From a virus: a stretch of DNA of 24,854 bases. The stretch's first letter is position 1, and the number at the start of each line of letters is the position of its first letter. Below are positions 5,769-23,108 of the stretch, piece by piece. The stretch spans positions 1-24,854 of IMG/VR virus record IMGVR_UViG_3300029309_000116; one strand, 5' to 3'. The translations under genes were made by a program, and so were the position numbers. The notes beneath the pieces are model-generated. The model saw only the letters and a list, made by a program, of their open reading frames with translations. It ran no database searches and was not told where the DNA came from.

Positions 5769-5796
5769 GTTATACTAAAAAATATCTATATGTCAA
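5769..5796 (-). promoter_or_regulatory. Promoter for capsid and decoration genes
   Basis: Read leftward, a perfect -35 TTGACA (5796-5791) is followed after 16 bases by TATAAC (5774-5769). The -10 and its surroundings (GTATAAC.TATAT) match those of the promoter at 21461-21489. The -35 box lies inside the last codons of the oxygenase gene, whose stop is at 5786. Confidence 0.75.
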
Positions 5797-6454
5797 CACT
5801 TTTTTCTTTAGGTATTTCAATAAAATTCATATTCATACTGAAAGACCTTCTTTCACCCTTCGTATAGAAAGGATATACGCAGTGAAATAGTTGAGATGGG
5901 AAGACATAAAAGTCTCCTACCTGCGGCTTTACTACAAAGTTTGTGCATGTATATCCCGAAGGAGTACCACTAGCAAACTGTATATGCCCGTTGGCAGGAT
6001 GATGATCTTTATAATCTTCTTCCCACTCTTGTTCTATTCCGTCTGGCAATTTTAGATATCCCACACATGACAAACGAGAACCTGTGTGTATGTGTAGAGG
6101 ATTATATTCATTTTCAAATTGACGAACAAACCAACCGGACACTACTTGTAGTCCGTAGTTATACTTTTCATTGTCCATCTTTTTACTGCCCATACTGTTT
6201 CGGTCATCTGTATAGGCTTGATACATGCCTATAAATCTGCCTAAACCCTCTTGGGCAATTTTAATAATGTCATCGTCAAACGCTAATTCTGCAGACACTT
6301 TACCTACTAAATTCTCAGAGTAATCATCTAACTTATCAGACATCTTGTCATTTAAATTATTAATCAACTCTTCGGGCATACGGTAGTATCCCATAGTAGG
6401 TCCAAAGGGAGCAAGAAGATGTATATCTTTTTCAGGTTTGAATATAATACTCAT
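5786..6454 (-). CDS. 2-oxoglutarate/Fe(II)-dependent oxygenase (2OG-FeII_Oxy_5-like)
   Basis: The protein has 222 residues. The ATG overlaps the scaffold stop as ATGA. The C-terminal half carries the oxygenase core. NPLHIHTGSRLSCVGYLKLP (118-137) provides iron ligands around His121/His123. VGDFYVFPSQLFHCVYPF (179-196) provides the distal ligand His191. ERRSFSMNMNF (201-211) provides Arg202 or Arg203 for 2-oxoglutarate. This is the arrangement of the putative 2OG-Fe(II) oxygenases found in cyanophages and other marine phages. The substrate is unknown. The position between scaffold and capsid suggests action on virion proteins or co-production with them, but this is inference. The N-terminal ~100 residues are helical and unassigned. 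Confidence 0.8.
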   Translation of the reverse strand: MSIIFKPEKDIHLLAPFGPTMGYYRMPEELINNLNDKMSDKLDDYSENLVGKVSAELAFDDDIIKIAQEGLGRFIGMYQAYTDDRNSMGSKKMDNEKYNYGLQVVSGWFVRQFENEYNPLHIHTGSRLSCVGYLKLPDGIEQEWEEDYKDHHPANGHIQFASGTPSGYTCTNFVVKPQVGDFYVFPSQLFHCVYPFYTKGERRSFSMNMNFIEIPKEKSVDI

Positions 6455-12557: not shown

Positions 12558-14117
12558 TTAATATCCAAATGTAGAATCTGCTACTCGCATACCCGTACCC
12601 GGTCTACCTTGCGGGTCGTAGTCGAAAATACTAAATCGAGGTCTGGACATAATTCCGTACCGTAGGGCGTCATAAAGATGGTCTTCAGACTTTGTATCAA
12701 CGTCTTCTGGATTGCGTTTGTCAAGCGGAAGTGCTGGTAGCTGGGATATAATGTTCGTGCAATTATTAAAGAACACAAGTCTTGGTTCCTCCGTGTACTC
12801 GTCTACTTGTAGCCGTCTATGTATTTCGTTTTTACCAGCTACCCGACTGCCTCTACTTCTATCCGATGGACGCCACCTGCATCCTTTACTAATCATTTGT
12901 TCTGCCAGACTAGGACCAGTATCACCGCGCTTATGCCAAAGAGAACTATCAAGAACACCGTACTTGATGTTGCCATCCCCAGCTTCCAACTCAAGTATTT
13001 GCTCTGCCAAATCTGTCGCCAGAACTTTAGAAACGTAATGCTCCCTGTATACAATAAGCTGTTCAGCAGGACTAACAGCAAACCAAACAACCCCACTGTA
13101 TGAGCCATACCCATAATCACAAGCCCTAAACTTAACCCAATTATTAGGAATGGAGAAAGGATCAACCACGTGAATGTTACGATCAAACTCCGTAAAGGCT
13201 GCACCTTCTTTAATATCCCAATCACCTTCTAATAACTGTCTTCGTTGTTGTTCTGGCATGGATAGAAGCATCGCTTCGTAGTCACCCGACTCTGCCAAGT
13301 AAGGATTGTCAGATAATCTTGCTGGGATAAACCTCCTTTTGAATAGAGGTCTGCCAGCTTTTGCATGTCCTGCGGGATACCGCAAGACCTCTCCTGTTTC
13401 AGAATCTGTCGCATCGAAAGACCTATTATATGGTGCAGGGTCGATGAACATCTTCTTGACCCATTGATGGCCCCTTCCTCCGGGGTTAGTCGTAGCCCTC
13501 ATAAAGATGGGCAAGTCTGGTGCAGTGGACCGTAGACGTGACCGCATGTAATTCCATGCATACGGTGTGGACCATTGAGTCAATTCGTCAAACCCTATCC
13601 AGCTAAATGCTAGACCCTGATAACGCAAGACATCATCATCTCTATCCAGATATGACATCCACAACCTTGCGCCAGATGGTGCGGTCCACTGCATCTTACG
13701 TTCTGACCACTTTATCCCCGGCCAGATTTTTGGGTACAACTCCTGCGACTTGAATATAAGTTCACGCAGTTCCTCTGTTGTATGCCGAAGCAACAGTCCA
13801 CTAAACTGTGGATGCCCCATGTAACGTAGTGGGTCTGCAAGCATGGCGTAGCTTTTACCACCACCTGCACTTCCACCATATAGCACTTCTCGTTCTGCAG
13901 CAGCTAGAAACTCTGTCTGTGGACCCTTGTTTGGTTTAAATAATACATTGGCATGTTCTTCTATTGCCTCTGTTTCATATGAAACATCTTGTATTTCAAC
14001 CGTTGGCTTTGGAGCCGACTCTTTCTTCTTCAAGGGCTTTCGCTTTGGCGATTGCCTTTTCCGCATATTCTGCCCACTTGCGGAGGCTTCTAGCTTGGTT
14101 CTTACGATGTTTTTCAT
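12558..14117 (-). CDS. terL: Terminase large subunit
   Basis: The protein has 519 residues from 14117. An internal ATG at 14066 is an alternative, and neither has a strong ribosome-binding site. Walker A is YGGSAGGGKS (80-89), Walker B is WIGFDE (173-178) with the catalytic Glu, and the coupling motif is ATTNPGGRGHQ (208-218). The nuclease half shows Asp residues in FRACDYGYG, YGVLDSSLWH and KSEDHLYDALRYG, as in RNase H-like terminase nucleases. The enzyme cuts concatemers and drives DNA packaging through the portal. The first 122 bases overlap the end of the upstream HTH gene in another frame. The lysine-rich N-terminus (KRQSPKRKPLKKK) is probably disordered. Confidence 0.95.
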   Translation of the reverse strand: MKNIVRTKLEASASGQNMRKRQSPKRKPLKKKESAPKPTVEIQDVSYETEAIEEHANVLFKPNKGPQTEFLAAAEREVLYGGSAGGGKSYAMLADPLRYMGHPQFSGLLLRHTTEELRELIFKSQELYPKIWPGIKWSERKMQWTAPSGARLWMSYLDRDDDVLRYQGLAFSWIGFDELTQWSTPYAWNYMRSRLRSTAPDLPIFMRATTNPGGRGHQWVKKMFIDPAPYNRSFDATDSETGEVLRYPAGHAKAGRPLFKRRFIPARLSDNPYLAESGDYEAMLLSMPEQQRRQLLEGDWDIKEGAAFTEFDRNIHVVDPFSIPNNWVKFRACDYGYGSYSGVVWFAVSPAEQLIVYREHYVSKVLATDLAEQILELEAGDGNIKYGVLDSSLWHKRGDTGPSLAEQMISKGCRWRPSDRSRGSRVAGKNEIHRRLQVDEYTEEPRLVFFNNCTNIISQLPALPLDKRNPEDVDTKSEDHLYDALRYGIMSRPRFSIFDYDPQGRPGTGMRVADSTFGY

Positions 14118-14594: not shown

Positions 14595-14968
14595 TAGTCA
14601 TCCTCCTCAACCGTAGCTTTAGGTGGCATAAGCATAACACCACCACTTGCCTCTACCTGCATCTTCTCTGTCTTCACCAGACCTACACGGTCAAGTAGTT
14701 CTTTAGCAGCAACCATCTTGTCACGAATACCTAGTTCCGTTGGGTCAACAAGTGCGCCTGTCATAGCCATAGCAGCCCGTGGTGCATTACGTGCCATGTA
14801 CATCTGCGTAGCTTCAAGTATCTCTTCTTTCAATCCCTTGACAATCTCTGCCGTTCCACTTGTGTCTGCGTAACCTGCCATCTTCTTTGCAGTCACCATG
14901 TCACCACCTGCTTCGTCAAAAAGCACTGCAAGAAACTTCTGCTGTTTTTCTGTTAGCTGTCTAGCCAT
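14594..14968 (-). CDS. Terminase small subunit-like protein
   Basis: The protein has 124 residues. The start overlaps the lysozyme stop as TAATG with GGTGAG upstream. The N-terminal LTEKQQKFLAVLFDEAGGDM with KKMAGY fits the helix-turn-helix of small terminases. The middle helix (EEILEATQMYMARNAPRAAM) fits the oligomerisation region. The protein ends in an acidic tail (VEEDD) that could contact TerL. The order lysozyme, TerS, HTH, TerL is consistent. Family similarity is recognised by pattern. pac or cos specificity cannot be deduced. Confidence 0.7.
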   Translation of the reverse strand: MARQLTEKQQKFLAVLFDEAGGDMVTAKKMAGYADTSGTAEIVKGLKEEILEATQMYMARNAPRAAMAMTGALVDPTELGIRDKMVAAKELLDRVGLVKTEKMQVEASGGVMLMPPKATVEEDD

Positions 14969-15453
14969 TATATCTCACCTGTGTGCATAGCATGTGCTAA
15001 TTTTGTTGCCCTTGATTTTACCTGATTTGCCCACCTGCTGTCAAGCATTTCTTTTGCTGCTTCTTCAAAATTATTTTCGTGGATAGCTGCCCACATTTTT
15101 TTGAACTTATTTAATCTTGGTACACCCATATTAAATGCCATGTCTACCAATATAAGCTGACGCACAGAGTCTAACCTGTCCACGCAAGGGTGCGCACGTA
15201 ACAGTTCTTCTTCGACAATCTGTACGTCATTCTCTGCTAGATACATGGCATCAGCTTCGGATATACCATATTCATAAATTATATCCATGTTAGGAATATC
15301 CATCCACGCTAGTTCTTCATCAGTAATGCCACGATCCTCTAGGTTCCTTCCAATACCAATTGTATCAATTCCTAGTGTATCCTTGTATACTTGAAGGCGT
15401 AAACCCTCGTGTGTAATTAATTTATTAACTAAGTCTTCTTTATTATATTTCAT
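14968..15453 (-). CDS. Endolysin, T4-type lysozyme (GH24)
   Basis: The protein has 161 residues, close to T4 lysozyme (164). Catalytic residues keep exact T4 spacing: Glu17 or so in HEGLRLQVYKD, Asp nine residues on, Thr six later in DTIGIGR. Further family marks are LILVDMAFNMG and the C-terminal SRWANQVKSRATKLAHAM. The enzyme cleaves the glycan strands of peptidoglycan at lysis. No signal peptide is seen, so release through a holin is expected, and two holin-like genes lie just upstream. The start overlaps the preceding stop as ATGA, and the stop overlaps the TerS start as TAATG. Confidence 0.92.
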   Translation of the reverse strand: MKYNKEDLVNKLITHEGLRLQVYKDTLGIDTIGIGRNLEDRGITDEELAWMDIPNMDIIYEYGISEADAMYLAENDVQIVEEELLRAHPCVDRLDSVRQLILVDMAFNMGVPRLNKFKKMWAAIHENNFEEAAKEMLDSRWANQVKSRATKLAHAMHTGEI

Positions 15454-16097: not shown

Positions 16098-16336
16098 TAT
16101 GCTCTCCTGAATCTTGCTGTCTTTTTAGCAATACCTTTTGGTTGCTTGACAAATTGTTTTCCTTTACGTGTACCTTCCCTCTTAGCTTTGGTTGTAGCCG
16201 CGTATTCCTGCGACGACAAACTTTTGATAGCGGCTGACGGTAAATACCGTTCACCAGTTTTACTGGATGGTTTCCCACTCTTTGTTCTCCAATCCTGCTT
16301 AGTCCATTGTTTGAGACTTTTCTGTGGTGCTTTCAT
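16097..16336 (-). CDS. Small basic protein, DUF5872-like
   Basis: The protein has 79 residues, coupled at both ends by TAATG. It begins with a basic segment (QWTKQDWRTKSGKPSSKTGE), then RYLPSAAIKSLSSQEYAATT, and ends in a Lys/Arg-rich tail (TRKGKQFVKQPKG, IAKKTARFRRA). I associate this pattern with the DUF5872 type found in phages and large algal viruses; the name is from memory. No function is established. The strong positive charge suggests nucleic-acid binding, possibly inside the capsid, but that is inference. Confidence 0.65.
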   Translation of the reverse strand: MKAPQKSLKQWTKQDWRTKSGKPSSKTGERYLPSAAIKSLSSQEYAATTKAKREGTRKGKQFVKQPKGIAKKTARFRRA

Positions 16337-17028
16337 TACTTTCGTGACTTCTCTATAGCTTTAAATGTTTCTCGTAAACTAGGAGGCTTTTCATTTTTAG
16401 GATCATACTTGCATTGTATTTCTTTTGGAAAGTATTCGCTAGTATCTAACCAAACACTATCCACCGTATTGTTAGCACCATGATATATACATAACCTTTC
16501 TTTATCTATAGTCTGGCATCCTTGTAGTCTACATATTACATATTCAGGACTTGCATTAGCGGCTAGACCTTTAAGAAATAATACAAAACCAACAAGAAGA
16601 CCTGCACCAAGTAATGACATTAATATCCATGCCACAATTTCAACAAACTTACGTCTACGTTGTCTTTGCTTATATAGTGTCTCTTGGCGTTGTTTCCTAA
16701 TAGTCCCTTCCATTTTTACGAGTGCATCCCATTTGGACTTACCCATCGTTAAGCCAATCCAGTTTTGCAATTCTCTACGCTGACTTTCTGCCTTTTCTTT
16801 GGCTGCGAATGTCTCCATCGCTTCCTGTTCCACAGACTTACCTGCAAACAGCTTCTTAAAGATAGGCGGGTTCTTCGCCTCTTTCTCAAGCATGTCTAGG
16901 TCGCTAAGTGCGCCCATCCATCTGCCTAAGTCGGATGCCATGCTCTCTATATCACGGCCTACTTGGAAGCCTTTCTTGATAGCACCAAACGCTGCAGACG
17001 CAGTTGCCATCGCACTAATCGGGTCCAT
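16336..17028 (-). CDS. Membrane-anchored protein with cysteine-rich exterior domain
   Basis: The protein has 230 residues. The ATG follows the oxygenase stop directly (TAAATG). The first 110 residues are helical and begin with a Gly/Ala-rich segment (MDPISAMATASAAFGAIKKG). A strongly basic stretch (RKQRQETLYKQRQRRRKF, 111-128) precedes one membrane helix at 130-152. The C-terminal 78 residues hold four cysteines, in VICRLQGCQ, RLCIYHG and IQCKYD. By the positive-inside rule the basic helix would be cytoplasmic and the cysteine domain periplasmic, where disulphides could form. Homologous-looking proteins are common in marine phages without known function. It lies between the Rieske-type gene and the lysis cassette, so a lysis or envelope role is possible. 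Confidence 0.7.
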   Translation of the reverse strand: MDPISAMATASAAFGAIKKGFQVGRDIESMASDLGRWMGALSDLDMLEKEAKNPPIFKKLFAGKSVEQEAMETFAAKEKAESQRRELQNWIGLTMGKSKWDALVKMEGTIRKQRQETLYKQRQRRRKFVEIVAWILMSLLGAGLLVGFVLFLKGLAANASPEYVICRLQGCQTIDKERLCIYHGANNTVDSVWLDTSEYFPKEIQCKYDPKNEKPPSLRETFKAIEKSRK

Positions 17029-18108
17029 TTATGCTGCTTTCTTTATCGGGTTGTCAGCCTCTACTCCCATCCACTTGCTCCACTCAGCGTAGTAGTGTCG
17101 CATTCCTACTTCATCGTGAATGGTTCCATTCTCATGTCTACCATGCAGGATATTACGTGGCTCAGTTCCTTCTCTCATTGTTGTGCCTTGTCCAGCCACA
17201 CCTATTAAGTCTTCGTGTAAGTTACGTCCAAACGGACCCCATATAGAGTTGTGATGCTCAATACGGGTATTACGTTCTTCTGTTGTATCATTCTTTAAGC
17301 CGTATCCTCTAAACTCAATCAATACTTTGTTTGGTCCAAGTGGTGTTACACTGTCACTACGATATGCGCTACCTCGCAGATTAAAGTTGTAGCCAGGAAA
17401 CAAGTCTACCATGTACCACTGATTTGGTGGCAAGTTGGGAAAAGATAACTCGCCTCTGTCTTCAAATCCCTGATACTCTTCATAGTTAACAGTAAAGCTG
17501 CTGACATTAACATGACCATTATCAAAAGGCACGTTCTTTCTGGCAAAGTATTCATCGTTAAATCCAGATACACGATTGAAGTAGTGCATGAAGTCGTGGT
17601 AGAACTCACTGTTAGTGTCGTGCCACAGTTTGTAGTTTGTGTCTATAATAGCTTTGTGGTAGTGAAATACTTCTAGTTCTTCTGTATCAATAGCATCAGC
17701 AATGCAATCAAACGCCCCACAAGTCCACTCCTCCACACTCATGTCTGGGTTTTTATTTAGCGTAACCCAAACCATACCACCGTGTTTTACTTCGCAGTGC
17801 AGTTCACCCCAGTCACGTGCGTGGTAGCACAGAGATATATCATTACCTGCAGGTGACATAACACCTTTGTTTAGAAATGACCTGTAGCCATTGTCAAACT
17901 TTATGGTGATTATATTTTGCCCAGCTATCTGTGCAGTCCTGTAACTTCCTATATGTTGTATTTCACTTTTGTGAAATGCGGGAACCCATACCTTTGAAAA
18001 TATGTTTTCTAGTTCTTCTTCAAACAAACTCTGGTCAGAGTATATAAGAGAGTTTACATACTCTACATTAGGTTCTTTAGTCCAGTTCATATGATTGCGT
18101 GGTGGCAT
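17029..18108 (-). CDS. Rieske-type ring-hydroxylating oxygenase alpha-subunit homologue with degenerate Rieske site
   Basis: The protein has 359 residues, near the usual length for oxygenase alpha subunits (about 350-450). Residues 38-118 follow the Rieske-domain path (KVWVPAFHKSEI, YRSFLNKG, GGMVWVTLNKNP). The first C-x-H pair is replaced by GVMS (82-85), and of the second only C94-Y-H96 remains. The catalytic domain keeps the mononuclear iron site: NYKLWHDTNSEFYHDFMHYF has Glu168, His171 and His175, and HEDLIGVAGQG has Asp300. His-His spacing is three residues, not the usual four. Known family members need electrons from the Rieske cluster, so this protein may use another donor or do something else. 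It lies in the late operon, coupled by TAATG upstream. The substrate is unknown. Catalytic-fold recognition is confident; activity is not. Confidence 0.8.
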   Translation of the reverse strand: MPPRNHMNWTKEPNVEYVNSLIYSDQSLFEEELENIFSKVWVPAFHKSEIQHIGSYRTAQIAGQNIITIKFDNGYRSFLNKGVMSPAGNDISLCYHARDWGELHCEVKHGGMVWVTLNKNPDMSVEEWTCGAFDCIADAIDTEELEVFHYHKAIIDTNYKLWHDTNSEFYHDFMHYFNRVSGFNDEYFARKNVPFDNGHVNVSSFTVNYEEYQGFEDRGELSFPNLPPNQWYMVDLFPGYNFNLRGSAYRSDSVTPLGPNKVLIEFRGYGLKNDTTEERNTRIEHHNSIWGPFGRNLHEDLIGVAGQGTTMREGTEPRNILHGRHENGTIHDEVGMRHYYAEWSKWMGVEADNPIKKAA

Positions 18109-18592: not shown

Positions 18593-18952
18593 CTATTGTG
18601 CTGGATCATAAAATTCTTCGGCACTGATTGTAATAACAAGAGTGTCTGCTGTACCAGCATCTACAATCAGCTTATCCTCTGCATGTATGTACAACGGTTT
18701 ATCCACAGTGAATATATTAGTTGCAGTCTTTGATGCTAAAGCATGTGTGTCCATAAGTGTGTGCGTTGTATTAGCAGCCTTTTCAAAATATTTAACTGTG
18801 AAGTTTTGACTACCACTGTGATTATTTGAAATCATCATGTTCTCTACATGCGACGAAAAATTTTTAGGCACAACGTAACAATCTGTATCATTGGTTGAAG
18901 ACAACGCTACAACCTTTGTAACAAACTTTGAACCATCAATTAATCTGGGCAT
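18593..18952 (-). CDS. Probable virion surface or tail-associated beta protein
   Basis: The protein has 119 residues from the ATG at 18952, chosen because GGGAG lies seven bases upstream. A longer frame from 18985 would overlap the SET gene by 50 bases instead of 17. The sequence is mostly beta with short strands: KFVTKVVALSSTNDTDCYVV, SSHVENMMISNNHSGSQNFT, and a C-terminal DKLIVDAGTADTLVITISAE. This pattern (strand, SN-x-SGS, strand, AGD-like turn, strand) occurs in small jelly-roll-like virion proteins of marine phages. No enzyme motif is seen. A structural role is inferred. Confidence 0.6.
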   Translation of the reverse strand: MPRLIDGSKFVTKVVALSSTNDTDCYVVPKNFSSHVENMMISNNHSGSQNFTVKYFEKAANTTHTLMDTHALASKTATNIFTVDKPLYIHAEDKLIVDAGTADTLVITISAEEFYDPAQ

Positions 18953-19304
18953 CTCTGCTCTCCCAATAGCTTTCGCCGTAGTCATGTAGTATTTCTTCGT
19001 CTTTTTTTATTTCTGTAAGTGCATAAAACTTAACAAAGAGTTCATCTTCATCGTCTATATCCCACTCTGCATTAGGAGTTTCACTATGGTTATATATCAT
19101 AGCTAACCCTAAAGGAATATAAAAAGTATCTTCTTCTCCTTCATATGGAGAGTAGAACATATAGTCGTGAAGAACACACTCATCGCCTATATCGTTTTCG
19201 TTGGAAATCAGATAAGGACATAGTTCTATAGTATCACCTACAGAATAGTCCTTATCTGCAAAAACGCCAAGACCATGTATTTTAGATTTGGCTACGTGAG
19301 GCAC
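18936..19304 (-). CDS. SET-domain protein (putative protein-lysine methyltransferase)
   Basis: The protein has 122 residues from a GTG that overlaps the previous stop as TAGTG. SET motifs are present in order: KIHGLGVFADKDYSVGDTIE (8-27), LAMIYNHSETPNAEW (67-81) with the NHS..PN cofactor pocket, and IKKDEEILHDYGESYW (99-114) with the catalytic-type Tyr109. The length matches a bare SET domain, like the chlorella-virus vSET, with no pre-SET zinc site. SET enzymes transfer methyl groups from S-adenosylmethionine to lysine side chains. The target is unknown. The many lysine-rich small proteins encoded on both sides are obvious candidates, but that is only inference. Some viral SET proteins may act on host proteins. 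Confidence 0.8.
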   Translation of the reverse strand: MPHVAKSKIHGLGVFADKDYSVGDTIELCPYLISNENDIGDECVLHDYMFYSPYEGEEDTFYIPLGLAMIYNHSETPNAEWDIDDEDELFVKFYALTEIKKDEEILHDYGESYWESRDAQIN

Positions 19305-22508: not shown

Positions 22509-23108
22509 ATGAGTGTTGAAAATATTCTTGCCACATATAAGATGGCAACACCGGAAGAAAAGCGTGATGGTATTGTGTGGTACGCAGACGCATTGCGAGA
22601 CTGTACACGCATTGCGCTTGATACATGCGTTCCATTGCACATTGTTGTTGGTGTGGTGGCAAGCCTATCACCTAATAACAAGTGGGAACGCAACATTATA
22701 AATGCAAAAAATTTAATCCATGCCCATGTAAATGGGGATGGCATGGATAGCATCAAGGTATCCACATACCACAAGATGAAACAAAAAGCGTGGTCAATAC
22801 TAGAGGCAATGCCTGACCACGATGGCGTCATTGACATACTCAATGGGCAAAAGATTGTTTCATTCTATCGCAACATTGTGGGTGATGATACGTGTACCAT
22901 TGATGGACACGCACGTAATATCGCATATGCTGAACGTGTAGGATTGACAGACGATAAGACCAATATCGGTGTCAAAGAATATAGGACACTACAGGCAGAG
23001 TATGTTCAGGCCGCGAAACGTACAAGAGTTAATGGTCGAGCATTAAAAGCATTTGAATTACAAGCCATCACATGGGTGACATGGCGTAGAATACACAACA
23101 TCAAGTGA
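22509..23108 (+). CDS. First rightward gene, unassigned phage protein (DUF7178-like pattern)
   Basis: The protein has 199 residues. AGGGG lies eight bases before the ATG. Motifs seen are VVASLSPNNKWERNIINAKN (48-67), then ILNGQKIVSFYRNIVGDD, TCTIDGHARNIAYAE and a C-terminal ELQAITWVTWRR. The chain of SP..KWE.N, NG.K..SFY.NI and T.DGHA reminds me of a phage family listed as DUF7178, and loosely of helix-hairpin-helix DNA glycosylase folds. Both comparisons are from memory and uncertain. A DNA-acting enzyme of the early region is therefore possible. The gene sits behind the structured leader. Confidence 0.7.
   Translation: MSVENILATYKMATPEEKRDGIVWYADALRDCTRIALDTCVPLHIVVGVVASLSPNNKWERNIINAKNLIHAHVNGDGMDSIKVSTYHKMKQKAWSILEAMPDHDGVIDILNGQKIVSFYRNIVGDDTCTIDGHARNIAYAERVGLTDDKTNIGVKEYRTLQAEYVQAAKRTRVNGRALKAFELQAITWVTWRRIHNIK

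Follow-up and report, generated by a model that had tools for sequence, protein, structure and literature searches.

The stretch of marine phage DNA analysed here (the window; 24,854 nucleotides of the 37.7 kb IMG/VR record IMGVR_UViG_3300029309_000116) encodes an MsmA-like protein that has kept the mononuclear iron site of a Rieske oxygenase alpha subunit and lost the Rieske cluster. Judged from sequence comparisons, the phage probably contributes the iron-bearing alpha subunit to a split methanesulfonate (MSA) monooxygenase, the electrons of which would be delivered by a Rieske-reductase subunit of the host. An earlier sequence-only reading of the window had proposed that the catalytic iron site is retained, the cluster lost and the electrons obtained from elsewhere, which is now supported by ligand counts, Pfam matches and a candidate partner in SAR116 bacteria. 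Loss of the Rieske motif in phage HMO-2011 is not new; it was published in 2015, together with its absence from many marine metagenome and virome sequences and from one of the two copies in SAR116 IMCC1322 (PMC4433239). The complementary host partner of the phage subunit, however, appears to be unreported, and searching the literature for Rieske proteins together with phages or marine viruses yielded nothing relevant.

Table 1: Position of the iron-half gene, its key residues and selected neighbours in the window.
Feature	Position	Strand	Remarks
2OG-Fe(II) oxygenase	5786-6454	(-)	phrog_81, PF13759; between capsid gene and 292-aa gene
Terminase large subunit	12558-14117	(-)	89% identity to HMO-2011, by which the phage type is recognised
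Phage lysozyme	14968-15453	(-)	PF00959; relatives in 67 of 81 viral loci with iron half
Downstream neighbour	16336-17028	(-)	230 aa, phrog_32327; same-strand relatives in 25 of 81 viral loci
Clusterless MsmA-like alpha subunit (iron half)	17029-18108	(-)	359 aa; ORF, PF00848, AlphaFold2 pLDDT 86.9
D300, iron ligand	17209-17211	(-)	invariant
H171 and H175, iron ligands	17584-17598	(-)	codons 17596-17598 and 17584-17586; invariant
E168, bridging carboxylate between neighbour's Rieske cluster and mononuclear iron	17605-17607	(-)	invariant
Residues 76-106, remains of two cluster-binding loops	17791-17883	(-)	31 aa versus 76 aa in true MsmA
Small SET-domain protein	18936-19304	(-)	PF00856, E 1e-11; relatives in 10 of 81 viral loci
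DUF7178/phrog_3842 protein	22509-23108	(+)	opposite strand

The Phage Gene and Its Surroundings

The gene fills its region exactly as a minus-strand open reading frame, and the plus strand is interrupted by stop codons. Pfam analysis of the encoded protein identified the catalytic domain Ring_hydroxyl_A (PF00848, E 2.4e-7) and no match to the Rieske domain PF00355; no PHROGs family was given for it. Pfam and PHROGs matches of the neighbouring genes confirmed its location among virion and lysis genes (Table 1), as had been noted from the sequence. The 2OG-Fe(II) oxygenase represents a second non-heme iron oxygenase of the same phage.

Loss of the Rieske Cluster

Alignment with true MsmA revealed a 45-residue deletion in the phage protein, by which both cluster loops are gone. 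The MsmA motif CXH-X26-CXXH with its 26-residue spacer (PMC4433239) is thus deleted, and CxH...CxxH ligands were detected neither in the window protein nor in any of the 30 iron-half sequences checked. The first C-x-H pair is indeed missing, in agreement with the sequence-only reading. That reading had also taken C94-Y-H96 for half of the second pair, which did not hold. The second CxxH of MsmA falls inside the deleted region, and the two residues proved variable in an alignment of 83 sequences (from 80 further viral contigs besides the window, its own record and HMO-2011; one gene is represented by two rows): many phages have T, L, V, I or E in place of C94, and H96 is missing in about 24 of the 83. 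C94-Y-H96 was therefore rejected as a surviving ligand pair; the alignment with MsmA points to a rebuilt loop, and residues 76-106 change rapidly among phages.

Conservation of the Iron Site and Predicted Fold

The four residues E168, H171, H175 and D300, which had been placed correctly from the sequence, are 100% conserved in the 83 aligned sequences, and no homologue lacking either histidine or the aspartate, which would have refuted the sequence-only reading, was present in this set. They are also invariant in a set of 91 sequences that includes general Rieske oxygenases. Mean column conservation in the 83 sequences amounted to 99.9% for residues 158-182 and 98.8% for residues 183-230 versus about 60-63% for residues 61-106. 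Strong purifying selection acts on the catalytic domain of the iron half, with pN values of 0.03-0.07 against pS values of 0.6-0.9 in the catalytic region, and on these values a degenerate relic was rejected. For the old cluster loops, nonsynonymous change reached 0.3-0.6 in most comparisons. The pattern argues for an active and constrained catalytic domain, joined to a region that no longer has to hold a cluster. The His-x3-His spacing, previously regarded as unusual, is real and differs from the x4 spacing of general Rieske oxygenases, but true MsmA regularly shows it, and it was rejected as an indication of new chemistry.

An AlphaFold2 model based on the 91-sequence alignment was obtained with a pLDDT of 86.9 and a pTM of 0.88; this deep alignment was used for the reported model, whereas close relatives alone gave a pLDDT of 48. 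The model matches the alpha chains of terephthalate dioxygenase (TPADO), salicylate 5-hydroxylase (NagGH) and biphenyl dioxygenase with Z scores of about 32, the aligned part covering some 320 residues. The full alpha fold of Rieske oxygenases is predicted, including the helix-grip catalytic domain with its 2-His-1-carboxylate site, the absence of which would have spoken against the original reading. According to the model, the fold of the iron half is intact, the body of the Rieske domain included; residues 176-182 are poorly predicted.

Descent from MsmA

True MsmA proteins in the genome collection (Filomicrobium, Hyphomicrobium, Methylobacterium, Methylocella, and others) comprise about 410-430 aa and carry NVCPHRG-X26-CMFHAW. 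The catalytic domain of the phage protein is 81-84% identical to that of full MsmA and 91% identical to that of the SAR116 iron half, whereas the N-terminal part is 47% identical to full MsmA; over the whole length, an order-wide survey gave 74-76% identity to the SAR116 iron half. In a tree of catalytic domains, phage and SAR116 iron halves group in a single clade (100/99) within alphaproteobacterial MsmA. Together, identities and tree clearly support descent of the iron half from MsmA. Within the clade HMO-2011 branches first, and the SAR116 copies are nested inside the phage copies, so that the iron half of the SAR116 host may come from a phage. The simpler arrangement, a tree in which the phages were forced into one clade, was not rejected (AU p 0.18).

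A Split msm Operon in SAR116

SAR116 genomes carry a clusterless MsmA-like protein of about 362 aa inside an msm operon, which comprises divergent msmE-type transporter genes and genes for a protein of ~800 aa, MsmB, the Rieske ferredoxin MsmC, a 279-aa protein, the iron half and a LysR regulator. The ~800-aa protein, here called the Rieske half, is a paralogue of MsmA in which CPHRG-X26-CMFHAW is intact and the iron site erased; a Pyr_redox_2/Reductase_C (FAD) reductase follows. In most SAR116 loci, iron and Rieske halves are found in one operon with the genes for transporter, beta subunit and Rieske ferredoxin. A sulfite exporter gene is located near the split msm genes. In the single-contig SAR116 genome G092 (2,753,527 bases) the split genes lie together, with dmsABC-like genes inserted (L213:9911-14501).

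The two halves are complementary in their ligands. All eight positions (ligands and bridge) are occupied in 20 of 20 full MsmA sequences. The four Rieske ligands are present in all 12 Rieske halves and the iron triad and bridge in none, whereas the iron half shows the triad and bridge in 30/30 and the Rieske ligands in 0/30. Pfam assignments follow the same division, with PF00848 alone in the iron half, PF00355 plus Pyr_redox_2 and Reductase_C in the Rieske half, and both PF00848 and PF00355 in MsmA. The sequence-only reading had offered three possibilities for the missing electrons, among them the cluster of a neighbouring subunit, which is strengthened by this Rieske-only paralogue fused to a reductase; a new chemistry, also considered there, is not needed.

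Two further observations concern the operon. In one SAR116 genome (L215:16189-18575) the Rieske half and the reductase are encoded by separate open reading frames with an ATGA overlap rather than fused. The 279-aa protein has no Pfam match (L083:7656-8495; L128:15709-16464), and a 30% identical relative is encoded near msmA in Methylobacterium oxalidis.

Distribution in Hosts and Viruses

Among 136 SAR116-order genomes, both halves were present in 12, one half alone in none and full MsmA with neither half in one; the 12 genomes are related and their two genes usually adjacent, and they do not represent 12 independent events. Of the 12 Rieske halves, one is cut at a contig end and one is the split version. 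The single genome with full MsmA, MED-G04, also has MsmB, MsmC and a separate ferredoxin-type reductase. When 17 genomes were chosen for the iron half, the Rieske half was detected in 14; in the other three, the contigs were short or unlike the msm operon.

The phage group concerned is reported to rank with the most abundant ones in marine viromes. Relatives of the iron half occur in at least 599 viral stretches of IMG/VR. The homologue in Puniceispirillum phage HMO-2011 (ADW08429) is 74% identical and carries the annotation methanesulfonate monooxygenase alpha subunit. A scan of viral contigs with exact peptide patterns, which diverged copies could escape, gave no Rieske half; PF00355 above the cut-off was absent from 12 phage records, including complete HMO-2011, and the 81 viral loci contained no relatives of MsmB, MsmC or the 279-aa protein. 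On these grounds a phage-encoded Rieske partner was rejected.

SAR116 is known as host of this phage type through HMO-2011, which infects IMCC1322, and may also be the host of the window phage. Isolated relatives of the phage type infecting roseobacters and SAR11 (terminase 48-83% identical) lack the iron-half gene, which among the isolates is found only in the SAR116 phage HMO-2011. This is to be expected if a SAR116-type partner is needed. On one further contig (L098:10001-11089) the gene is accompanied by genes for ribonucleotide reductase, and nothing there resembles the structural proteins of the window; it perhaps represents a second phage type carrying the iron half.

A Putative Phage-Host Hybrid Enzyme

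In Rieske oxygenases the mononuclear iron is served by a Rieske cluster of the adjacent alpha subunit in the trimer. A conserved acidic bridge is essential for electron transfer from the Rieske cluster to the mononuclear iron (PMC5033481). Since the iron half has kept E168 without a cluster of its own and the Rieske half possesses a cluster without bridge or iron ligands, a mixed oligomer is the simplest reading. During infection, the phage subunit would assemble with the Rieske-reductase subunit of the host, probably joined by host MsmB, and would thereby accompany or replace the host's own iron half. Electrons would pass from NADH to FAD and, probably via MsmC, on to the Rieske cluster carried by the host alpha subunit; E168 would then relay them across the subunit interface to the phage subunit's iron, at which O2 would be activated. 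The alpha trimer, being odd-numbered, would not allow two subunit types to alternate perfectly, which counts against a simple stoichiometry.

The likely reaction is the conversion of MSA to formaldehyde and sulfite. This is the weakest step of the proposal, as MSA is assigned by homology and operon content, and the same split enzyme might act on another small sulfonate or C1 sulfur compound. The dmsABC genes inside the operon of genome G092 would fit such a substrate, as would the warning that true MSA users all have CXH-X26-CXXH in MsmA (PMC4433239). The catalytic domain, however, is 81-84% identical to that of full-length MsmA, and genes for msmE-type transporters and a sulfite exporter lie in the neighbourhood; we regard a substrate other than MSA as unlikely. 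With MSA as substrate, the formaldehyde would feed one-carbon metabolism during phage replication; the gain for the phage might accordingly lie in formaldehyde for one-carbon units, in sulfite or in a kinetic change.

It is improbable that the iron half dispenses with a Rieske alpha partner and takes its electrons directly from a soluble donor, such as MsmC or another ferredoxin, or uses a peroxide shunt. A Rieske ferredoxin is encoded in the same operon and could in principle dock at the site of the lost cluster, but the bridging E168 is invariant and a Rieske-bearing paralogue always accompanies the iron half in SAR116-order genomes. That paralogue has moreover retained every cluster ligand but not its iron site, a pattern that would make no sense if a ferredoxin bypassed it. 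Very unlikely is a decoy or inhibitor that joins the split host enzyme to shut it down or redirect it without adding activity: the phage subunit must indeed compete with a host iron half about 75% identical overall, but a dominant-negative subunit needs neither an intact iron triad nor a nearly invariant catalytic domain.

For the hybrid enzyme, a broader scenario can be drawn, for and against which we see about equal weight: reciprocal decay after gene duplication would have split the redox centres between sister subunits, phages (at least 599 stretches) would carry one half, and the enzyme of the infected cell would be composed of phage and host subunits.

The HMO-2011 gene has been discussed as a complete methanesulfonate-oxidising gene carried by phages (review PMC4928673), but it cannot work alone as annotated. 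A complementary host subunit explains the missing cluster of the phage protein and makes a simple reconstitution test possible. Surveys that recognise msmA by the Rieske motif, or solely by the catalytic domain, arrive at wrong counts for SAR116 and phage genes. If the proposed assembly is correct, nature provides an example in which a phage contributes one of the catalytic halves of a host enzyme, and electron transfer between subunits of Rieske oxygenases could be tested by mixing two separately made halves.

Comparison with Known Systems

The HMO-2011 "MsmA" and the clusterless SAR116 copies belong to the same family as the window protein (74-76% identity) and show the same losses without any difference of substance. 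MsmA of Methylosulfonomonas, Filomicrobium and Methylobacterium shares with the phage protein the fold, the motif NYKLWHDTNxEFYHDFMH with His-x3-His and the C-terminal HED motif; it differs by CPHRG-X26-CMFHAW, where the phage protein lacks 45 residues and has no known Rieske ligand set. The alpha subunits of terephthalate dioxygenase, salicylate 5-hydroxylase and naphthalene dioxygenase resemble the iron half in fold (Z about 30-32 over roughly 316-324 residues) at 15-19% identity, but unlike it, each has its own Rieske cluster.

The nearest precedent is NdmCDE, the caffeine N7-demethylase of Pseudomonas putida CBB5, in which the clusterless catalytic subunit NdmC relies on a Rieske domain carried by the reductase NdmD; it was described as the first such split (PMC4408171). 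The iron half and the Rieske-alpha-reductase fusion of SAR116 show the same arrangement, which is shared in layout and not by descent. NdmCDE additionally needs the GST-like NdmE, the like of which was not seen among the Pfam-tested operon genes of SAR116, the 279-aa operon protein having no Pfam match. In NdmCDE the reductase bears a Rieske domain, whereas in SAR116 the donor role falls to an entire alpha paralogue, the iron site of which is erased and which is joined to a Pyr_redox_2/Reductase_C reductase; the iron half is also carried by a phage. SAR116 appears to have reached an NdmC-like split by another route, the reciprocal decay of two MsmA copies.
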